From the NCBI GenBank assembly GCA_001769215.1, contig MEOL01000034.1, positions 1 to 64,000 on the forward strand: a stretch of 64,000 nt of DNA, given 5' to 3'. This DNA comes from Bacteroidetes bacterium GWF2_41_31. Lineage in GTDB: Bacteria; Bacteroidota; Bacteroidia; Bacteroidales; F082. A program made the translations under genes and the position numbers. Under the pieces are notes generated by a model. The model made no database searches, was not told the DNA's origin, and saw only the letters and a list, made by a program, of their open reading frames with translations. Each line of letters opens with the position of its first letter. The first letter of the stretch is position 1. This document shows, in pieces, positions 23,404-30,295 of this stretch.

Positions 23404-23991
23404 ATGCAGAAAATTCTTTCAGTTGTTTTAGTATTGTTGTTGGTGACGGGGACAAACTCCTGTGATGTGTTAGAACAAGTTGGTGAAACGGAACGCTTTG
23501 TCCAATGCGATTTTTCACTCAACGGTGTAAGGGTGGTAGAAATGGGCGGTATTGATCTGAGAAATGTCAACTCTGCCTCTGATTTAGGATTGGGAGATAT
23601 GATGTCGTTAAGCCAGCGGTTTATTAATGGCAATCTTCCGGCAACATTGGAGGTGGACGTGAACGCCAGAAATAACAGCACCAAAGTTGCAGGTATTGCC
23701 GGAATGGCATGGAAGGTGTTTCTGGATGAGTCCGAATTCGTGGGAGGGCAGTTTAACCAAAGTATCCAGGTTTTTGCGAACAGTTCCACTAATTTCCCCA
23801 TCCGGGTGCAGGTTGATTTGATCAAAATGCTCCAATCGGAGTCGCTCCCCAAAATATTAAACCTGATATTTGGAATGCAAGACAATACCAAACTTCGCGA
23901 ACTTGGCTTGTCGGTTAAACTAAAACCGGCTTATAAAACCTCTTCAGGTGCTGTAATAGAGTTTCCACTATGGATTACCATTCGGCCATAA
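23404..23991 (+). CDS. LEA type 2-like lipoprotein
   Basis: A 195-residue protein with a lipoprotein signal ending in TGTNSC. The mature part looks like a LEA14/WHy-type beta-sandwich: FSLNGVRVVEMGGIDLRNVN, LPATLEVDVNARNNSTKVAG and FANSSTNFPIRVQVDL are the alternating strand-plus-Asn/Thr pattern of that fold. Such proteins are envelope-located in bacteria and may bind hydrophobic ligands or protect against desiccation, but no specific role can be assigned. It is followed by the promoter region of the small-GTPase operon. Confidence 0.72.
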   Translation: MQKILSVVLVLLLVTGTNSCDVLEQVGETERFVQCDFSLNGVRVVEMGGIDLRNVNSASDLGLGDMMSLSQRFINGNLPATLEVDVNARNNSTKVAGIAGMAWKVFLDESEFVGGQFNQSIQVFANSSTNFPIRVQVDLIKMLQSESLPKILNLIFGMQDNTKLRELGLSVKLKPAYKTSSGAVIEFPLWITIRP

Positions 23992-24019: not shown

Positions 24020-24040
24020 TTCAACTTGTTTGAAGTTGAA
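24020..24040 (+). promoter_or_regulatory. Inverted repeat around the -33 box of the GTPase operon
   Basis: TTCAACTT (24020-24027) and AAGTTGAA (24033-24040) are perfect 8-bp arms around a 5-base loop, GTTTG, that contains the predicted -33 TTTG. The placement suggests a repressor operator. It is also 29 bases past the stop of the previous gene and could be a weak terminator, although no T run follows. Confidence 0.45.
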
Positions 24041-24058
24041 TAACTTATATTATATTTG
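24029..24058 (+). promoter_or_regulatory. Promoter of the GTPase signalling operon
   Basis: TTTG (24029-24032), an 18-base spacer and TATATTTG (24051-24058) fit the Bacteroidota primary-sigma promoter. It would give a leader of roughly 55 bases before the ATG at 24121. Confidence 0.65.
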
Positions 24059-24120: not shown

Positions 24121-24636
24121 ATGGAATCCCAACACAATGATATTGAAAGCCTATCAAGAATTCGTGAAATTTTATTTGGTGCACAGATCGAAGGCCTCGA
24201 GAACCAACTTTTATTAGTGAAAGAGGAAATCACGCAAACCATCAGGTTAATTGACGAAGAACACCAAAAAAAATACAACCTGCTCCATGAGCTATTAGAC
24301 GAAAAAACGGAAACGAACAAACAAAAAATTCTCCAATTGCAGGAAAATTTGGAAGGGCTTAAAGATTCCATGAGCTGTGGATTAAGTGAAATTGAGAATG
24401 CCTTGAATACATCGGTGAATAAACTTGAAACGCAGATAAAAGATACTGAAGCCCGGTTTCAACTGCTTATCGACCAAAATTTAGAGTTGATCAACCAAAA
24501 CAAGCAACGCCACGAAATCATGGAAAACAAGATCAGCACAATTGAAAACACAAAACTGGGAAAGGAAATACTGGCCAGGTGGTTGACTGACTTCGCCAGG
24601 GAATTATCAACAAATGATCCGGGAAAGCATGACTGA
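24121..24636 (+). CDS. Coiled-coil protein, first gene of the GTPase operon
   Basis: A 171-residue, almost entirely helical, charged protein with no signal peptide or membrane segment. Heptad-like spacing runs through most of it (ENQLLLVKEEITQTIRLIDE, LHELLDEKTETNKQKILQLQ, then two further helices), with a short C-terminal amphipathic part (ILARWLTDFAREL). It resembles no enzyme. Its end overlaps the next gene by 8 bases (ATG 24629) or 23 bases (ATG 24614), so it is translationally coupled. It may scaffold or tether the downstream transmembrane protein or GTPase. Function is inference only. Confidence 0.82.
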   Translation: MESQHNDIESLSRIREILFGAQIEGLENQLLLVKEEITQTIRLIDEEHQKKYNLLHELLDEKTETNKQKILQLQENLEGLKDSMSCGLSEIENALNTSVNKLETQIKDTEARFQLLIDQNLELINQNKQRHEIMENKISTIENTKLGKEILARWLTDFARELSTNDPGKHD

Positions 24637-26380
24637 AAAAGATCATAAAAGTAATTTGTATAGCAGCATTTCGCTCGGTCAGCTTACCGAACTTCGTAAA
24701 GCCATTACGGGGCTCGATAGCGAGGACCTGCAGCGATTAAGCAGATTAATACAAGATCCGGAACTTTTTTCCATCGAAATAAGTCAGTTGCTTCCTCTTT
24801 CGATAAAAAAAATGTTTGAAAGGGGTGAGGTGGATGAGGAGCAGCTTCGAAAGTTTGTTGAACAGGTACTGCATCAGAGCGTTAAAAGTGATCCGGGCGT
24901 CATGGCCACTATACTTTTTCCCATCATGATGCCCGCCATCCGAAAGGCTGTTGCCGAAGATATAAAAAGAATGGTCGAAAGCCTGAACACATCGCTGGAC
25001 CATGGTTTTTCTCCCAAGCGCATTGGCTGGCGCATGCAAGCGCTGTTCAGCGGAAGAAAATACGCGGAGATCCTCTTATCGAATGCGTATGTTTTTAAAG
25101 TAAGCCAGGTTTTTCTAATCCACAGAACCACGGGATTGTTGCTGAATCAAGTGCAGGAAACAGAAATAAAAGATGCCAGGGATGCAGATTTGGTTTCGTC
25201 TATGCTGTCGGCCATCAAGGATTTTGTTCAGGATTCGTTTCAAAGGGATGCAGAAGAAAACCTGGATTCCATCAAGGTAGGAAACTTTAATATCTGGATC
25301 GAACAGGGACCCTATGCCATTATCGCTGCTATTGTTGAAGGAAACGTGCCCGGAAGTTTACGGCTGATTTTGAAAGAAGCCATTGAGGCCATTCATGTAA
25401 ATTTTAGTTATGAACTGGAACATTTTCAGGGCGATACGGAACCGTTTGTTTTAAAAGACCGCTTTTTACGTGCTTGTTTATTAAATGAGAAAAAAGAAGT
25501 AAAAGGGAAAAAGCCGGTTATCATCCTCATCCTCGTGGCTTTATTACTTGGCGTTTTGAGTTTCTGGACTTATACGCGGGTTGAAACTAAACTCCGGTTT
25601 AACCGGATGCTCGATGAACTCGATGCGACGAAAGGAGTTGCAGTCACGGGTACCGAAAAAAAAGACGGTGTTTATTCGATTACCGGATTATACGATCCGC
25701 TCGTAGGCAATTTAAATAATGTTGTAAAGCTACATGGATTTGATTTACATGATGTAAAGCTGAATTTGGAGCCCATGATTTCTCTGGATTATGATTTGGT
25801 TTTATTACGCGCCCGCAGGGTACTGATGCCTCCTGAAACCATCGACCTTAGTCTGAAAAGGGATACTTTGATTGCTGAAGGTGACGCGGATAATGAATGG
25901 CTCAAACGGGCCACTTCACTCGTTCTTCATTTACCAGGTATCTATTTTTTCGACATCACTAAAGTAAATGAAGAAAAAATACAGCAAACACCTGCCAGAC
26001 AACTGGTTAAAAAGAGAATACTGGCCATCGAAAACTACTATTTCGTTTTTAAAATCAACGAGGTGAAGCTTGACAGCCTCCAGAAGATTGATTTCGATAT
26101 TTTGATTAATGAAGCAAAATCTGTTCTGAATTTTCGATTCGATCAGGATTCGGTACCTGTAATAGAAGTATTTTCCCATACCAGTAGGACCGGACATATT
26201 GATGCGAATAAAAACGCCGCCAGGTTACGGGCCGAGAAGTTTGTTGATTTGATGTTGCATGCTGGTCTTCCCATCGAAACCCTTGTCCCTAAAGTTATTT
26301 TTGTCGAAGATGAAAAGGTACCTTTCCCTGTCAGGTCAGTTTCTTTTAAAGTTAAATATGTAAATCCGGCAGCCTTATGA
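24614..26380 (+). CDS. Single-pass protein with BON-like and OmpA-like periplasmic domains
   Basis: 588 residues. Residues 1-300 are cytoplasmic and mostly helical with a conserved-looking core (FSPKRIGWRMQALFSGRKYA, FKVSQVFLIHRTTGLLL). One transmembrane helix spans about 301-320 (PVIILILVALLLGVLSFW). The periplasmic part contains a BON-like segment (RDTLIAEGDADNEWLKRA then LHLPGI) and ends in an OmpA-like peptidoglycan-binding domain (VIEVFSHTSRTGHIDANKNA, then ARLRAEKFVDLMLHAGLP). The layout suggests a sensor linking the cell wall to the cytoplasm. The start may instead be ATG 24629. Its stop overlaps the GTPase start (ATGA). As I recall, similar proteins accompany small GTPases in cyanobacteria; I could not check this. 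Confidence 0.85.
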   Translation: MIRESMTEKDHKSNLYSSISLGQLTELRKAITGLDSEDLQRLSRLIQDPELFSIEISQLLPLSIKKMFERGEVDEEQLRKFVEQVLHQSVKSDPGVMATILFPIMMPAIRKAVAEDIKRMVESLNTSLDHGFSPKRIGWRMQALFSGRKYAEILLSNAYVFKVSQVFLIHRTTGLLLNQVQETEIKDARDADLVSSMLSAIKDFVQDSFQRDAEENLDSIKVGNFNIWIEQGPYAIIAAIVEGNVPGSLRLILKEAIEAIHVNFSYELEHFQGDTEPFVLKDRFLRACLLNEKKEVKGKKPVIILILVALLLGVLSFWTYTRVETKLRFNRMLDELDATKGVAVTGTEKKDGVYSITGLYDPLVGNLNNVVKLHGFDLHDVKLNLEPMISLDYDLVLLRARRVLMPPETIDLSLKRDTLIAEGDADNEWLKRATSLVLHLPGIYFFDITKVNEEKIQQTPARQLVKKRILAIENYYFVFKINEVKLDSLQKIDFDILINEAKSVLNFRFDQDSVPVIEVFSHTSRTGHIDANKNAARLRAEKFVDLMLHAGLPIETLVPKVIFVEDEKVPFPVRSVSFKVKYVNPAAL

Positions 26381-26871
26381 TTAAAAAGAAAATATGTATG
26401 TTAGGGGCGTTTGCCGTGGGGAAAACGAGTCTTGTGCAGCGATTTGTAAATAGTATATTTTCAGGGAAATACCAAACTACCATTGGCGTAAAAATCGATC
26501 AAAAGATGGTTTCTCTTGGTGAAACAGATGTTAATCTATTGCTTTGGGATATTCACGGAGAAGATGATTTTCAAAAAGTGAAAGCAACTTATGTGATGGG
26601 TGCTTCGGGCTATTTTATCGTGATAGATGGCACCCGAAGCGAGACCTATCAGGTTGGCCTGGAGTTGGAAAAACTGGCTAAGAATGCTGCTCCTCAGGCA
26701 AAATGTGTCATACTGATCAATAAATCTGACTTAATACGCGATTGGGAAATAACTCACGGACAAATCGCGAAGCTCATTAGCGACGGTTTCAAGGTTATAC
26801 AAACAAGTGCCAAAGATAACCTCGCCGTAGAAACTGCTTTTACCGAACTTACCAGGATGATGATAAAATAA
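26377..26871 (+). CDS. Ras/Rab-like small GTPase
   Basis: 164 residues and a complete G domain: P-loop GAFAVGKTS (residues 10-18), switch I threonine T35 in YQTTIG, G3 WDIHGED (D58, G61), G4 NKSD and G5 TSAK. Numbering nearly equals Ras. Two catalytic positions are altered: Ras Gly12 is Phe and the Gln61 equivalent is Glu62, so intrinsic hydrolysis may be slow and a GAP may be needed. There is no C-terminal cysteine for lipidation, unlike eukaryotic Rab. Its start overlaps the OmpA-like gene by 4 bases and the histidine kinase follows after 6 bases. Confidence 0.93.
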   Translation: MIKKKICMLGAFAVGKTSLVQRFVNSIFSGKYQTTIGVKIDQKMVSLGETDVNLLLWDIHGEDDFQKVKATYVMGASGYFIVIDGTRSETYQVGLELEKLAKNAAPQAKCVILINKSDLIRDWEITHGQIAKLISDGFKVIQTSAKDNLAVETAFTELTRMMIK

Positions 26872-26877
26872 CAGCCC

Positions 26878-28407
26878 ATGCTTAAGCTACTACCCGAATC
26901 CATATTAAAATACCTCATCGATAAATTGCCCCCGTTTACAGGAATACTGATGGTTAAAACTACCTTTGAAGGAACCATTTGTGGGTGGTACGGAAAGCCG
27001 GACGATTACCTTGATCGCAACCCTGAAATTGGAGAAGATGTGTGTGAGCTGGTGCCCGCGATTTTTGGGATGATTCCCCCCATGGTGGTTCCTGTGGTGA
27101 TGCCGAGGATACAAACCCGCGATCAGTGTATAGCCGATATCCATATTGTTCAGGATGAGATGACTGATGACTACTGGATATTTTTTGTAAACCAAACCAA
27201 AGAAGTTGAAAACATACGCCAGTTGCTTCAACGCTTAAATGAAATTCAGATTAAAACCGGTATCCTGTCTGTTACCAGCTTTTTGGATAACCCTTTTGGT
27301 AACTTGCATTTGCTCGATTACGTTACTTTCTTAAAGCAGGAAAACGGTTTTTTTATCCTCCTTGGAGAGCGACCTGAATGGTTTAAGGAACTTGCACAGC
27401 ACTTTCCAGTTACTGATCAGCAAATAGCACTGGCGGAATGGTTTCCATTTATCGATGTTTTCGTTATGGAAGCAGATGATTTTTGGAAAGAGGGAAAACC
27501 AGGCAGCCTGAAGTCAGGTATTTGGAATGAGAATGCAGTGACAGGTAAAACATTTTCACTCAATGCATTTGCTATTAACCTGAACGAATCGAATTACCTG
27601 TTGATAAAGCCATTGTTTGATGAGTATACTGAGGAACAGGATTTGATGCAACGTGCCCGTGAGCAAAGCCTTGCTTATGAAAAATTAGCCAAAACTGAAC
27701 GTAAGTTGCAGGCATTGCTCGATTACAAAGAGAAATTTGTTTCCATCGTTTCGCATGATTTGCGCTCACCGGTTGCATCCGTGCTTTCCATTGCCCAGGT
27801 ACTCAACTCCGATGCCGAATTCATGGATCACCTCAGTGATTTTAATAGGGAAATGATTAAGAATATTCAGGATGAAATGCACAGACTGCTTGATTACAAT
27901 GATAAATTATATCATTGGTCGAACCTGGAATTGGGTAATTTTGAATTGGTTACCTCCAGGATACCTCTGGTTGATCTGGTGAAATCGGCTGAACGCACCG
28001 CCAAACCCAAAATCAACGAAAAACAAATCCTGTTCAAAACCCGTGTTGACGAGGAACTCCTGGTGGAAGTTGACAAAACACTTTTCTTGCAGGTACTAAA
28101 TAATTTAATTGGTAACGCTGTTAAGTTTACACCAACGGGTGGGATTATCGAGGTTATGGGTACCAAAAAAGATACCTATGTCGAATTGATTATTCACGAC
28201 TCGGGGGTTGGAATCTCGAAGTCGGTGATGAATAATCTGTTTCACGGCTTTGTTCGCGAGAGTACGCAGGGTACCCAGGGTGAAAAAGGGACGGGCCTGG
28301 GCATGGGGATTGTAAAAAAAATTCTGGATGCCCATAAGGTGACCATCGAGGTGGACTCGTCGCCCAACCAGGGCACTTCATTTATTATCTATTTGCCATT
28401 GGTATAA
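26878..28407 (+). CDS. Sensor histidine kinase of the GTPase operon
   Basis: 509 residues without transmembrane helices, so probably cytosolic. The first ~150 residues look PAS-like (GILMVKTTFEGTICGWYGKP), followed by a second sensory region of about 100 residues and a coiled-coil linker. The HisKA H-box is FVSIVSHDLRSPVAS, and the ATPase has N-box NNLIGNAVKFTPTGG, G1 DSGVGIS and G2 GTGLGMGI. All kinase motifs are intact. No response regulator follows, so the phosphorelay partner is elsewhere. Its place directly behind a GTPase suggests that the GTPase state or the envelope protein tunes kinase output. Confidence 0.92.
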   Translation: MLKLLPESILKYLIDKLPPFTGILMVKTTFEGTICGWYGKPDDYLDRNPEIGEDVCELVPAIFGMIPPMVVPVVMPRIQTRDQCIADIHIVQDEMTDDYWIFFVNQTKEVENIRQLLQRLNEIQIKTGILSVTSFLDNPFGNLHLLDYVTFLKQENGFFILLGERPEWFKELAQHFPVTDQQIALAEWFPFIDVFVMEADDFWKEGKPGSLKSGIWNENAVTGKTFSLNAFAINLNESNYLLIKPLFDEYTEEQDLMQRAREQSLAYEKLAKTERKLQALLDYKEKFVSIVSHDLRSPVASVLSIAQVLNSDAEFMDHLSDFNREMIKNIQDEMHRLLDYNDKLYHWSNLELGNFELVTSRIPLVDLVKSAERTAKPKINEKQILFKTRVDEELLVEVDKTLFLQVLNNLIGNAVKFTPTGGIIEVMGTKKDTYVELIIHDSGVGISKSVMNNLFHGFVRESTQGTQGEKGTGLGMGIVKKILDAHKVTIEVDSSPNQGTSFIIYLPLV

Positions 28408-28466: not shown

Positions 28467-28499
28467 TTTGATGTTTCGGCTGTTTTATTGTTAACTTTG
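28467..28499 (+). promoter_or_regulatory. Promoter of clpS
   Basis: TTTG (28467-28470), a 21-base spacer and TAACTTTG (28492-28499) match the Bacteroidota promoter pattern, 25 bases before the clpS ATG. Confidence 0.65.
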
Positions 28500-28524: not shown

Positions 28525-28800
28525 ATGGGTGTTAAAGAAAAATCTTTAGGTTCGCCTGATACTGTGTCCAAAGAGGAGAATTTACACAATTTAATCTTGT
28601 TCAACGATGAGGTAAATTCATTTGATTACGTCATCGATTCGTTGATTGCCGTTTGTGGACACGATTTTTTGCAAGCAGAGAATTGTGCCTTAATTGCTCA
28701 TTATAAGGGAAAATGCGTGATAAAGAATGGATCGTTGGATACGTTAAAGCCCATGAAACGAGAGTTGGATTTCAGAGATCTGACGGTTGAAATTAACTAA
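28525..28800 (+). CDS. clpS: ATP-dependent Clp protease adaptor ClpS
   Basis: A 91-residue adaptor that delivers N-degron substrates to ClpAP/ClpCP. The ClpS core is visible: NLILFNDEVNSFDYVIDSLI, then CGHDFLQAENCALIAHYKGK and a C-terminal strand with FRDLTVEIN. The canonical NDD(x)T reads NDEVNS. It has its own promoter and is followed after 34 bases by nfeD; whether the two are co-transcribed is uncertain. Confidence 0.9.
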   Translation: MGVKEKSLGSPDTVSKEENLHNLILFNDEVNSFDYVIDSLIAVCGHDFLQAENCALIAHYKGKCVIKNGSLDTLKPMKRELDFRDLTVEIN

Positions 28801-28834
28801 AAGACAAAAATTAGGATAAACAAAAAACATAACT

Positions 28835-29299
28835 ATGTGGTCGGTCATCATCATCTTAATATTAGTAGGTTACCTGTTGCTTTTGCTTGAAATCCTTGTC
28901 ATTCCCGGAACGGGAATTGTTGGAATCATTGGTTTTGGCCTGATGGTGGCTGGAATCTGGATCGCTTACCGCGACCAGGGAATGATCGAAGGACACATTG
29001 CCCTGACGACCACTTTGGCATTCAATCTGGTGGGTGTTGTGTTGGCATTGCGCTCAAACACATGGAAAAAAGCCGCACTAACTGCCGAGATCAAAGGAAA
29101 AGCAGGCCTCAATGTAGAAGCTGTGGTTGGTGTTGGCGATCGGGGGATGACCATTTCGAGGTGTACACCCGGAGGTACTGCGGAATTTAATAACCGGCTG
29201 CTGGAGGTTACAACTCAATCAGAATTTATTGATCCCCAGCGTCAAATAGAAATTATTAAAATTTCAGGAAATAAAATTATTGTTAAACAAATTACTTAA
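28835..29299 (+). CDS. NfeD-like membrane protein
   Basis: 154 residues with two or three N-terminal transmembrane helices (SVIIILILVGYLLLLLEILV, GIVGIIGFGLMVAGIWIAY, then a third) and a C-terminal OB-fold NfeD domain (VGVGDRGMTISRCTPGGTAE, IEIIKISGNKIIVKQ). This is the truncated NfeD form without the ClpP-class protease domain. NfeD proteins are nearly always paired with flotillins, and floA starts 9 bases downstream here, so the two probably form one membrane-microdomain module. Confidence 0.9.
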   Translation: MWSVIIILILVGYLLLLLEILVIPGTGIVGIIGFGLMVAGIWIAYRDQGMIEGHIALTTTLAFNLVGVVLALRSNTWKKAALTAEIKGKAGLNVEAVVGVGDRGMTISRCTPGGTAEFNNRLLEVTTQSEFIDPQRQIEIIKISGNKIIVKQIT

Positions 29300-29308
29300 T
29301 TCACGTTT

Positions 29309-30295
29309 ATGGAAGGAATGTATGTATATGTAGCCCTGGGAGTAGGAGTTATATTTTTATTGTGGATATTGCTCTATTTTATTCCTGTTGGACTGTGGTT
29401 CACAGCGTTGGTATCCGATGTAAGGATATCCTTGTTACAACTGGTACTCATGCGTTGGCGCAAAGTACCGCCAAGCGTTATCGTCAACAGCCTGATTACT
29501 TCTACAAAAGCCGGACTAAGCCTAAAGCGCGACGACCTGGAGGCCCATTACCTGGCAGGTGGTCGGGTACAAAAGGTAGTTATGGCGCTTATTTCGGCCG
29601 AAAAAGCCAACATTGTACTGGATTTTAAAACTGCCACCGCCATCGATTTGGCAGGCCGTGATGTTTTGGAGGCCGTTCAAATGTCAGTAAATCCAAAAGT
29701 GATTGACACTAAACGCGTTGCCGCCGTGGCTAAGGATGGTATTCAGTTGATTGCCATGGCCAGGGTAACCGTCCGTGCCAACATTCAGCAACTGGTTGGT
29801 GGAGCAGGTGAAGAAACCGTACTGGCACGTGTTGGCGAAGGAATCGTGTCGTCTATTGGTTCTGCCGCCTCGCATAAATCGGTGCTCGAAAATCCGGATA
29901 GCATTTCAAAAGTTGTGCTGAACAAGGGCCTCGACAGTGGAACTGCTTTCGAGATATTATCCATCGACATTGCCGATATCGACATTGGTAAAAATATTGG
30001 TGCCGAGTTGCAGATGGATCAGGCGAATGCCGATAAAAATATCGCGCAAGCCAAAGCTGAAGAAAGAAGAGCGATGGCCGTTGCCAACGAGCAGGAAATG
30101 AAGGCAAAAGCTCAGGAAGCCAGGGCCATCGTAATTTTAGCCGAAGCCGAAATCCCTAAAGCCATTGCTGAATCATTCCGTTCAGGGAACTTGGGTATCA
30201 TGGATTATTACAAGTTTAAGAATATCCAGGCCGATACCAGCATGCGTGAATCTATCGCTCAAAACCCTACGATTGAAGGGGAATCTATAAAATAG
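29309..30295 (+). CDS. floA: Flotillin-like protein FloA
   Basis: The 328-residue scaffold protein of bacterial functional membrane microdomains. An N-terminal membrane hairpin ([20 protein letters not shown]) is followed by the band-7/SPFH-like region ([40 protein letters not shown]) and an Ala/Glu-rich helix ([20 protein letters not shown]). The C-terminus [16 protein letters not shown] is diagnostic of FloA. It follows nfeD after 9 bases and ends before an 11-bp hairpin at 30310. Confidence 0.95.

Follow-up and report, generated by a model that had tools for sequence, protein, structure and literature searches.

The window analysed in this study, a 64,000-nucleotide stretch of contig MEOL01000034.1 from the 4.5 Mb genome of Bacteroidetes bacterium GWF2_41_31 (labelled G000), contains four forward-strand genes at positions 24121-28407 that encode, in order, a coiled-coil protein, a membrane protein (family A1), a small Ras-like GTPase and a soluble histidine kinase (HK). 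Judged by its make-up and motifs, this operon is a Group 1 Rup system, and the cytoplasmic domain of its membrane protein is similar at the profile level to the roadblock/LC7-longin regulators of GTPases.

Group 1 Rup GTPases are the prokaryotic proteins that strongly resemble Rab, Ran, Ras and Rho (PMC4316618). Their published gene neighbourhood comprises a coiled-coil protein, a protein with an unknown domain, a transmembrane helix and an OmpA domain, a Rab-like GTPase that lacks the glutamine of G3, and an output protein in which one glutamine is a hallmark (PMC4316618). Wuichet and Sogaard-Andersen proposed in 2014 that Group 1 Rup forms a conservon-like complex signal transduction system, at a time when experimental characterisation was lacking for every Rup member (PMC4316618). 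No experimental study of any Rup system was found in the literature searched, outside which most subscription papers fall. The window carries the same four genes, no difference in make-up was found, and Bacteroidetes are among the listed hosts (PMC4316618). The first-pass annotation of this DNA had proposed an undescribed signalling system. Its reading of an envelope protein, a Ras-like GTPase and a kinase as one signalling module was right and survives the co-occurrence test described below; the claim that the system was undescribed has to be withdrawn, as this neighbourhood, together with a largely similar hypothesis, appeared in print in 2014 (PMC4316618).

The operon and its GTPase

The four genes overlap or are nearly contiguous: the first junction is an overlap of 8 or 23 bases, the second an overlap of 4 (ATGA), and 6 bases separate the last two genes. 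The length of the first overlap depends on whether the membrane protein starts at ATG 24629 or at ATG 24614; the former start (583 aa) gives the best alignment with homologues. Order, strand, overlaps and gap as first annotated all agree with the coordinates of the open reading frames (ORFs; Table 1). The G motifs and kinase boxes noted at that stage are likewise confirmed and intact, with matches of the GTPase to Pfam Ras (E=1.7e-27) and of the kinase to HisKA (5e-9, residues 284-351) and HATPase_c (5e-23, residues 399-508).

All Group 1 Rup hallmarks examined were found. The GTPase is small (164 aa, below 240) and has the full set of Ras-like G1-G5 motifs, including the G3 Asp; the genes for the coiled-coil protein and the unknown domain-transmembrane-OmpA protein adjoin it; the output, an HK, has conserved N-terminal Gln residues (candidates Q118 and Q258); and no MglB gene is coupled to it, though a cryptic roadblock-like domain lies within its partner. 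In the G3 motif, DIHGED, Glu stands in place of Ras Gln61, and Phe occupies Ras position 12. Across 34 GTPases, residue 62 (the Ras Gln61 position) was E, D, S, K, T or G, and Q in none (0/34); GKT, T35, D58, NKxD and SA were invariant. The G3 Asp58 was thus retained in 34 of 34, and its replacement by Thr, the MglA substitution, was not seen among them. MglA is reported to depart from this highly conserved Asp (PMC3000849). The sole extra GTPase match was an oversized one, in an 887-aa reading frame (G052/L094, 1e-14).

Conservation and co-occurrence of the four genes

All four genes recur, with their order kept, in 15 relatives (loci L024-L039), which argues that the gene order is not due to chance. 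The GTPase and membrane-protein families co-occurred in 30 of 30 distinct carriers, and neither was found alone. Both were present in 16/61 relatives, 11/247 genomes of the phylum sample and 5/295 of the order sample; the three denominators are not summed, because the sets share the window genome and some others. Among the 61 relatives the membrane protein was identified by single-sequence search, and otherwise by profiles. Many Bacteroidota also gave weak A1 matches (E 1e-4 to 1e-6); these were confined to the OmpA end at the C-terminus and were excluded from the family. A scan of plasmids recovered rhizobial and Nostoc members; a scan of viral contigs recovered no relative.

A chance neighbourhood was rejected on the basis of this co-occurrence. 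Homologous GTPases occurring without their partners would have counted against the first-pass idea of a coupled system, and the GTPase was never found without its membrane-protein partner in the 30 carriers; the related expectation, that the four genes stay together across genomes, is borne out by the 15 relatives. The genes lie at one locus in 27 of the 30. In the other three, which belong to one genus (G073, G094 and G191), the coiled-coil and membrane-protein genes are on a different contig from the GTPase and its PAS outputs (locus pairs L068/L103, L071/L104 and L070/L105), the GTPase side consisting of the GTPase, a cyclase-like PAS protein and a kinase. This split suggests that the module is composed of two sub-modules.

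At two further loci, L067 and L069, the module is divergent: the GTPase and kinase genes lie on one strand and the coiled-coil and membrane-protein genes on the other, and the kinase is followed by an NtrC-type regulator gene. At L033:4995-6730 (G019) the membrane-protein gene occupies two overlapping frames (400 and 216 aa), either a frameshift in the metagenome-assembled genome or a real pseudogene.

Within the coiled-coil protein, an N-terminal motif, ENLSRIREILFG, and a C-terminal segment are conserved; the middle evolves fast.

A roadblock/longin-like domain in the membrane protein

Residues about 147-265 of the membrane protein have, as judged by eye, the order strand-strand-helix-strand-strand-strand-helix. 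When the domain profile (residues 144-270) was aligned by hhalign with 29 Robl_LC7 sequences from other Bacteroidota, a match of E=1.1e-5 over 96 columns was obtained, and the similarity was replicated in two disjoint subsets, the close family (3.6e-5) and the distant members (1.9e-5). Controls with the kinase, the GTPase and the remaining pieces of the membrane protein gave E-values of 0.035 or worse, except for two A1 windows that overlap the roadblock-like domain (6.3e-4 and 1.2e-4). As hhalign E-values are calculated one-against-one, column shuffles are the fairer yardstick; the best of 60 shuffles against Robl_LC7 reached E=0.0021. In a comparison with the whole PDB, the profile retrieved only three sequences at E<=10, two of TRAPP Bet5, which has a longin fold, and one roadblock protein.

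Longin and roadblock domains have been argued to be related GTPase-binding folds (PMC3521125), and for the cytoplasmic domain the two are not distinguishable by these profiles. TRAPP/Mon1-type longin folds bind Rab GTPases (PMC10933270). Although Bet5 gave the best PDB matches, TRAPP (Bet5/Trs23) and the Mon1-type Rab regulators are eukaryotic multi-subunit guanine nucleotide exchange factors (GEFs), and the similarity is at the superfamily level only.

PAS-Gln units are shared by different outputs

The N-terminus of the kinase, annotated at first pass as PAS, was modelled with AlphaFold2 as two PAS-like domains at a mean predicted local distance difference test (pLDDT) score of 66, and a Foldseek search returned tandem-PAS structures such as NifL and LOV-PAS-HK, in keeping with that annotation. 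A glutamine lies in the helix after each PAS. The equivalent of Gln118 was present in every homologue with PAS1, cyclase outputs included, save L026 (Ser), and Gln also aligns at this position in the Nostoc and the L074 sigma-54 outputs. Gln258 was present in every homologue with PAS2 other than L075, where it is offset by one.

The output is an HK in the window and its close family, an HK adjoining an NtrC-type regulator gene at L067, L069 and L072, a hybrid HK at L075 and in Nostoc (L078), a PAS-sigma-54 activator at L073 and L074, and a class III cyclase in rhizobia (L076). Positions 1 to 126-139 of the kinase profile match the rhizobial cyclases and the 309-aa cyclase-like protein of L103-L105. 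Because the catalytic ends vary while the PAS-Gln units persist, these units appear to be the GTPase-facing part of the outputs. Among the listed ORFs from 21.3 to 32.6 kb of the window, none was recognisable as a response-regulator gene.

Compared with the 2014 account, the roadblock-like domain, the second PAS-Gln, the sigma-54 and cyclase outputs, the split modules and an OmpA-less form (below) are additions.

A proposed mechanism and the direction of signalling

The explanation that we consider best, and somewhat probable, is a Group 1 Rup system with an HK output, in which a membrane-tethered roadblock-like domain acts on the GTPase and the GTPase acts on the PAS-Gln units of the kinase. 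The single transmembrane helix would anchor the roadblock/longin-like regulator domain at the inner face of the cytoplasmic membrane, and the BON/OmpA-type periplasmic parts would provide an envelope anchor or input in most lineages. The roadblock-like domain, probably dimeric and aided by the coiled-coil protein, would recruit the GTPase and set its nucleotide state, as a GEF or a GTPase-activating protein (GAP) might. Once loaded with GTP, the GTPase would bind the PAS-Gln units and alter kinase activity. The Gln after each PAS may substitute for the catalytic Gln that the GTPase lacks, and engagement of the output could then also reset the switch; the idea of a glutamine supplied in trans by the output protein originates in the 2014 study (PMC4316618).

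The same glutamines would also fit a reversed flow, in which the PAS domains of the output sense a cytoplasmic ligand and act as a GAP, and the state of the GTPase governs the membrane and coiled-coil proteins and hence an envelope process. A Gln in the output helix, with none catalytic in the GTPase, suits an output protein acting as GAP, and the membrane protein has OmpA-type anchors. The variety of catalytic ends beside a constant GTPase side is, however, what would be expected of GTPase effectors, and one relative has no membrane part; we regard reversed flow as unlikely.

The periplasmic part and peptidoglycan sensing

The single transmembrane helix noted at first pass is supported by the sequence. 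Of the two periplasmic domains claimed with it, the BON-like one had no Pfam match in the window protein but is matched in the Nostoc homologue L078 only (2.5e-8), and the OmpA-like one fell below threshold in the window protein (E=0.068) but was matched in 16 of 16 family members (best 7e-6), reaching 7e-13 in homologues. The rhizobial membrane protein is longer, at about 1021 aa, and its periplasmic units are repeated. In one genome (G194, locus L075), the coiled-coil protein, GTPase and hybrid kinase are accompanied by a 283-aa relative of the membrane protein that ends before the transmembrane helix. A TAG reported in that match falls, by coordinates, just 5' of the start codon, and the gene is apparently intact.

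Binding to peptidoglycan is a general property of OmpA-type domains. At first pass, the OmpA-like domain was held to be a sensor of peptidoglycan or of the state of the envelope that passes its signal inward to the GTPase; this model is narrower than the mechanism above and compatible with it. The presence of the domain in all 16 close members, together with this general binding property, speaks for such a role; set against it are the sub-threshold match in the window, a periplasmic architecture that varies between lineages (BON in Nostoc, repeats in rhizobia) and for which an anchor fits equally well, and L075, which keeps the other genes and only the cytoplasmic domain of the membrane protein. 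Peptidoglycan sensing as the input is therefore unsupported, and we consider it doubtful. The cytoplasmic domain is the constant part of the membrane protein, and because the L075 relative has neither transmembrane nor OmpA parts, sensing through OmpA is one possible input and not the core.

Relation to conservons and MglA/MglB

The actinobacterial conservons (CvnA-D) resemble the window operon in combining an HK, a Ras-like GTPase, a roadblock-type protein and an extra protein (PMC4316618, PMC13343842). The first-pass annotation had seen a new signalling logic in the coupling of GTPase to kinase; since conservons already couple the two, the wiring is not new (PMC4316618, PMC13343842). The systems differ in that the conservon has an MglA-type GTPase and a free-standing roadblock protein, CvnB, whereas in the window the kinase is soluble, it is the roadblock-like protein that carries the membrane part, and no CvnC counterpart was seen. 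The window GTPase is not MglA-type, and no standalone Robl_LC7 protein was found at E<=1e-5 in the window genome or in five other Rup genomes of the sample.

The MglA/MglB polarity switch likewise pairs a small GTPase with a roadblock-fold partner, although the window GTPase, unlike MglA, keeps the G3 Asp and no MglB-type protein was found in the window genome. MglA/MglB acts as a polarity switch (PMC2907295, PMC9481161). A spatial system, comparable to the placing of motility proteins by MglA/MglB, was considered, in which the GTPase and its membrane roadblock-like partner would bring the kinase to a pole or to the site of division with no direct tuning of its activity. A roadblock-like partner, a transmembrane/OmpA tether and a coiled-coil protein would suit a landmark of this kind; against it, the output of the rhizobial members is a cyclase and one relative lacks a membrane tether, and we think such a role improbable.

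Several points weigh against the favoured mechanism of roadblock-like domain, GTPase and kinase PAS-Gln units. The PDB matches of the domain profile were weak (E 0.023-0.14; Bet5 0.023 and 0.092), and single-sequence Pfam scans of the domain gave sub-threshold noise only, a longin model at E=0.15 included. The AlphaFold2 model of residues 1-300 of the membrane protein, built with only four sequences, failed (pLDDT 42), which leaves the roadblock assignment to profiles. The roadblock-like domain may be a scaffold, neither GEF nor GAP. On the output side, the kinase at L026:7187-8725 has the Ser at the Gln118 position, with Gln258 kept, and L101 has no recognised PAS-Gln output beside the GTPase.

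Feature coordinates, promoter signals and neighbouring genes

Table 1 Features of the operon in window coordinates
Feature	Position	Strand	Basis
Candidate promoter, TTTG-N18-TATATTTG	24029..24058	+	pattern match; position fits upstream of operon
Coiled-coil protein, 171 aa	24121..24636	+	ORF; conserved partner
Membrane protein (family A1), 583 aa (588 aa from ATG 24614)	24629..26380 (24614..26380)	+	
Roadblock/longin-like domain, residues about 158-257, VFLIHRTTGLLL...DLVSSMLSAIKDFVQDSF...	25100..25399	+	hhalign
Single transmembrane helix, PVIILILVALLLGVLSFWTYT	25514..25576	+	sequence
BON-like periplasmic segment, approximate limits	25616..25978	+	predicted from Nostoc homologue
OmpA-like C-terminal domain	26048..26278	+	Pfam OmpA in family
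Rup-type small GTPase, 164 aa	26377..26871	+	Pfam Ras; motifs
Soluble histidine kinase, 509 aa (PAS1, PAS2, HisKA, HATPase)	26878..28407	+	
Gln118 codon, helix after PAS1	27229..27231	+	conserved in homologues
Gln258 codon, helix after PAS2	27649..27651	+	conserved in homologues

TTTG-N18-TATATTTG is the Bacteroidota-type promoter consensus. Five matches to it were found in the window against 3.3 expected by chance, which makes the signal weak, and none lies within the operon itself. Scans for the sigma-70 consensus and for terminators performed no better than shuffles. The single promoter proposed at first pass is thus matched by an upstream candidate and by the lack of an internal one, but matches of this kind are expected by chance.

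Upstream of the operon (23404-23991), a gene encodes a protein of 195 aa whose N-terminus resembles that of a lipoprotein and whose only match, to LEA_2, is weak (E=0.19); the gene is also upstream in the two nearest relatives (L024 and L025) and is not listed in L027. Downstream (28525-30295) are ClpS-like and NfeD-like genes and one for a FloA/SPFH-type protein, as judged by sequence, with a TTTG/TANNTTTG match immediately 5' of them at 28467-28499.

Significance

We tentatively propose that a roadblock-type partner, thought to be absent from Rup systems, is built into the OmpA protein; a single protein would then connect envelope and Rab-like GTPase, and the PAS-Gln units of the outputs would be effector and GAP at once. 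If true, bacteria would have, in the built-in roadblock partner and its GTPase, a counterpart of the longin-Rab pairing in eukaryotic membrane traffic. A regulator-like domain and two candidate catalytic glutamines would make the general Rup hypothesis directly testable by biochemistry, and the roadblock link would unite the Rup, MglA and conservon systems in one scheme.

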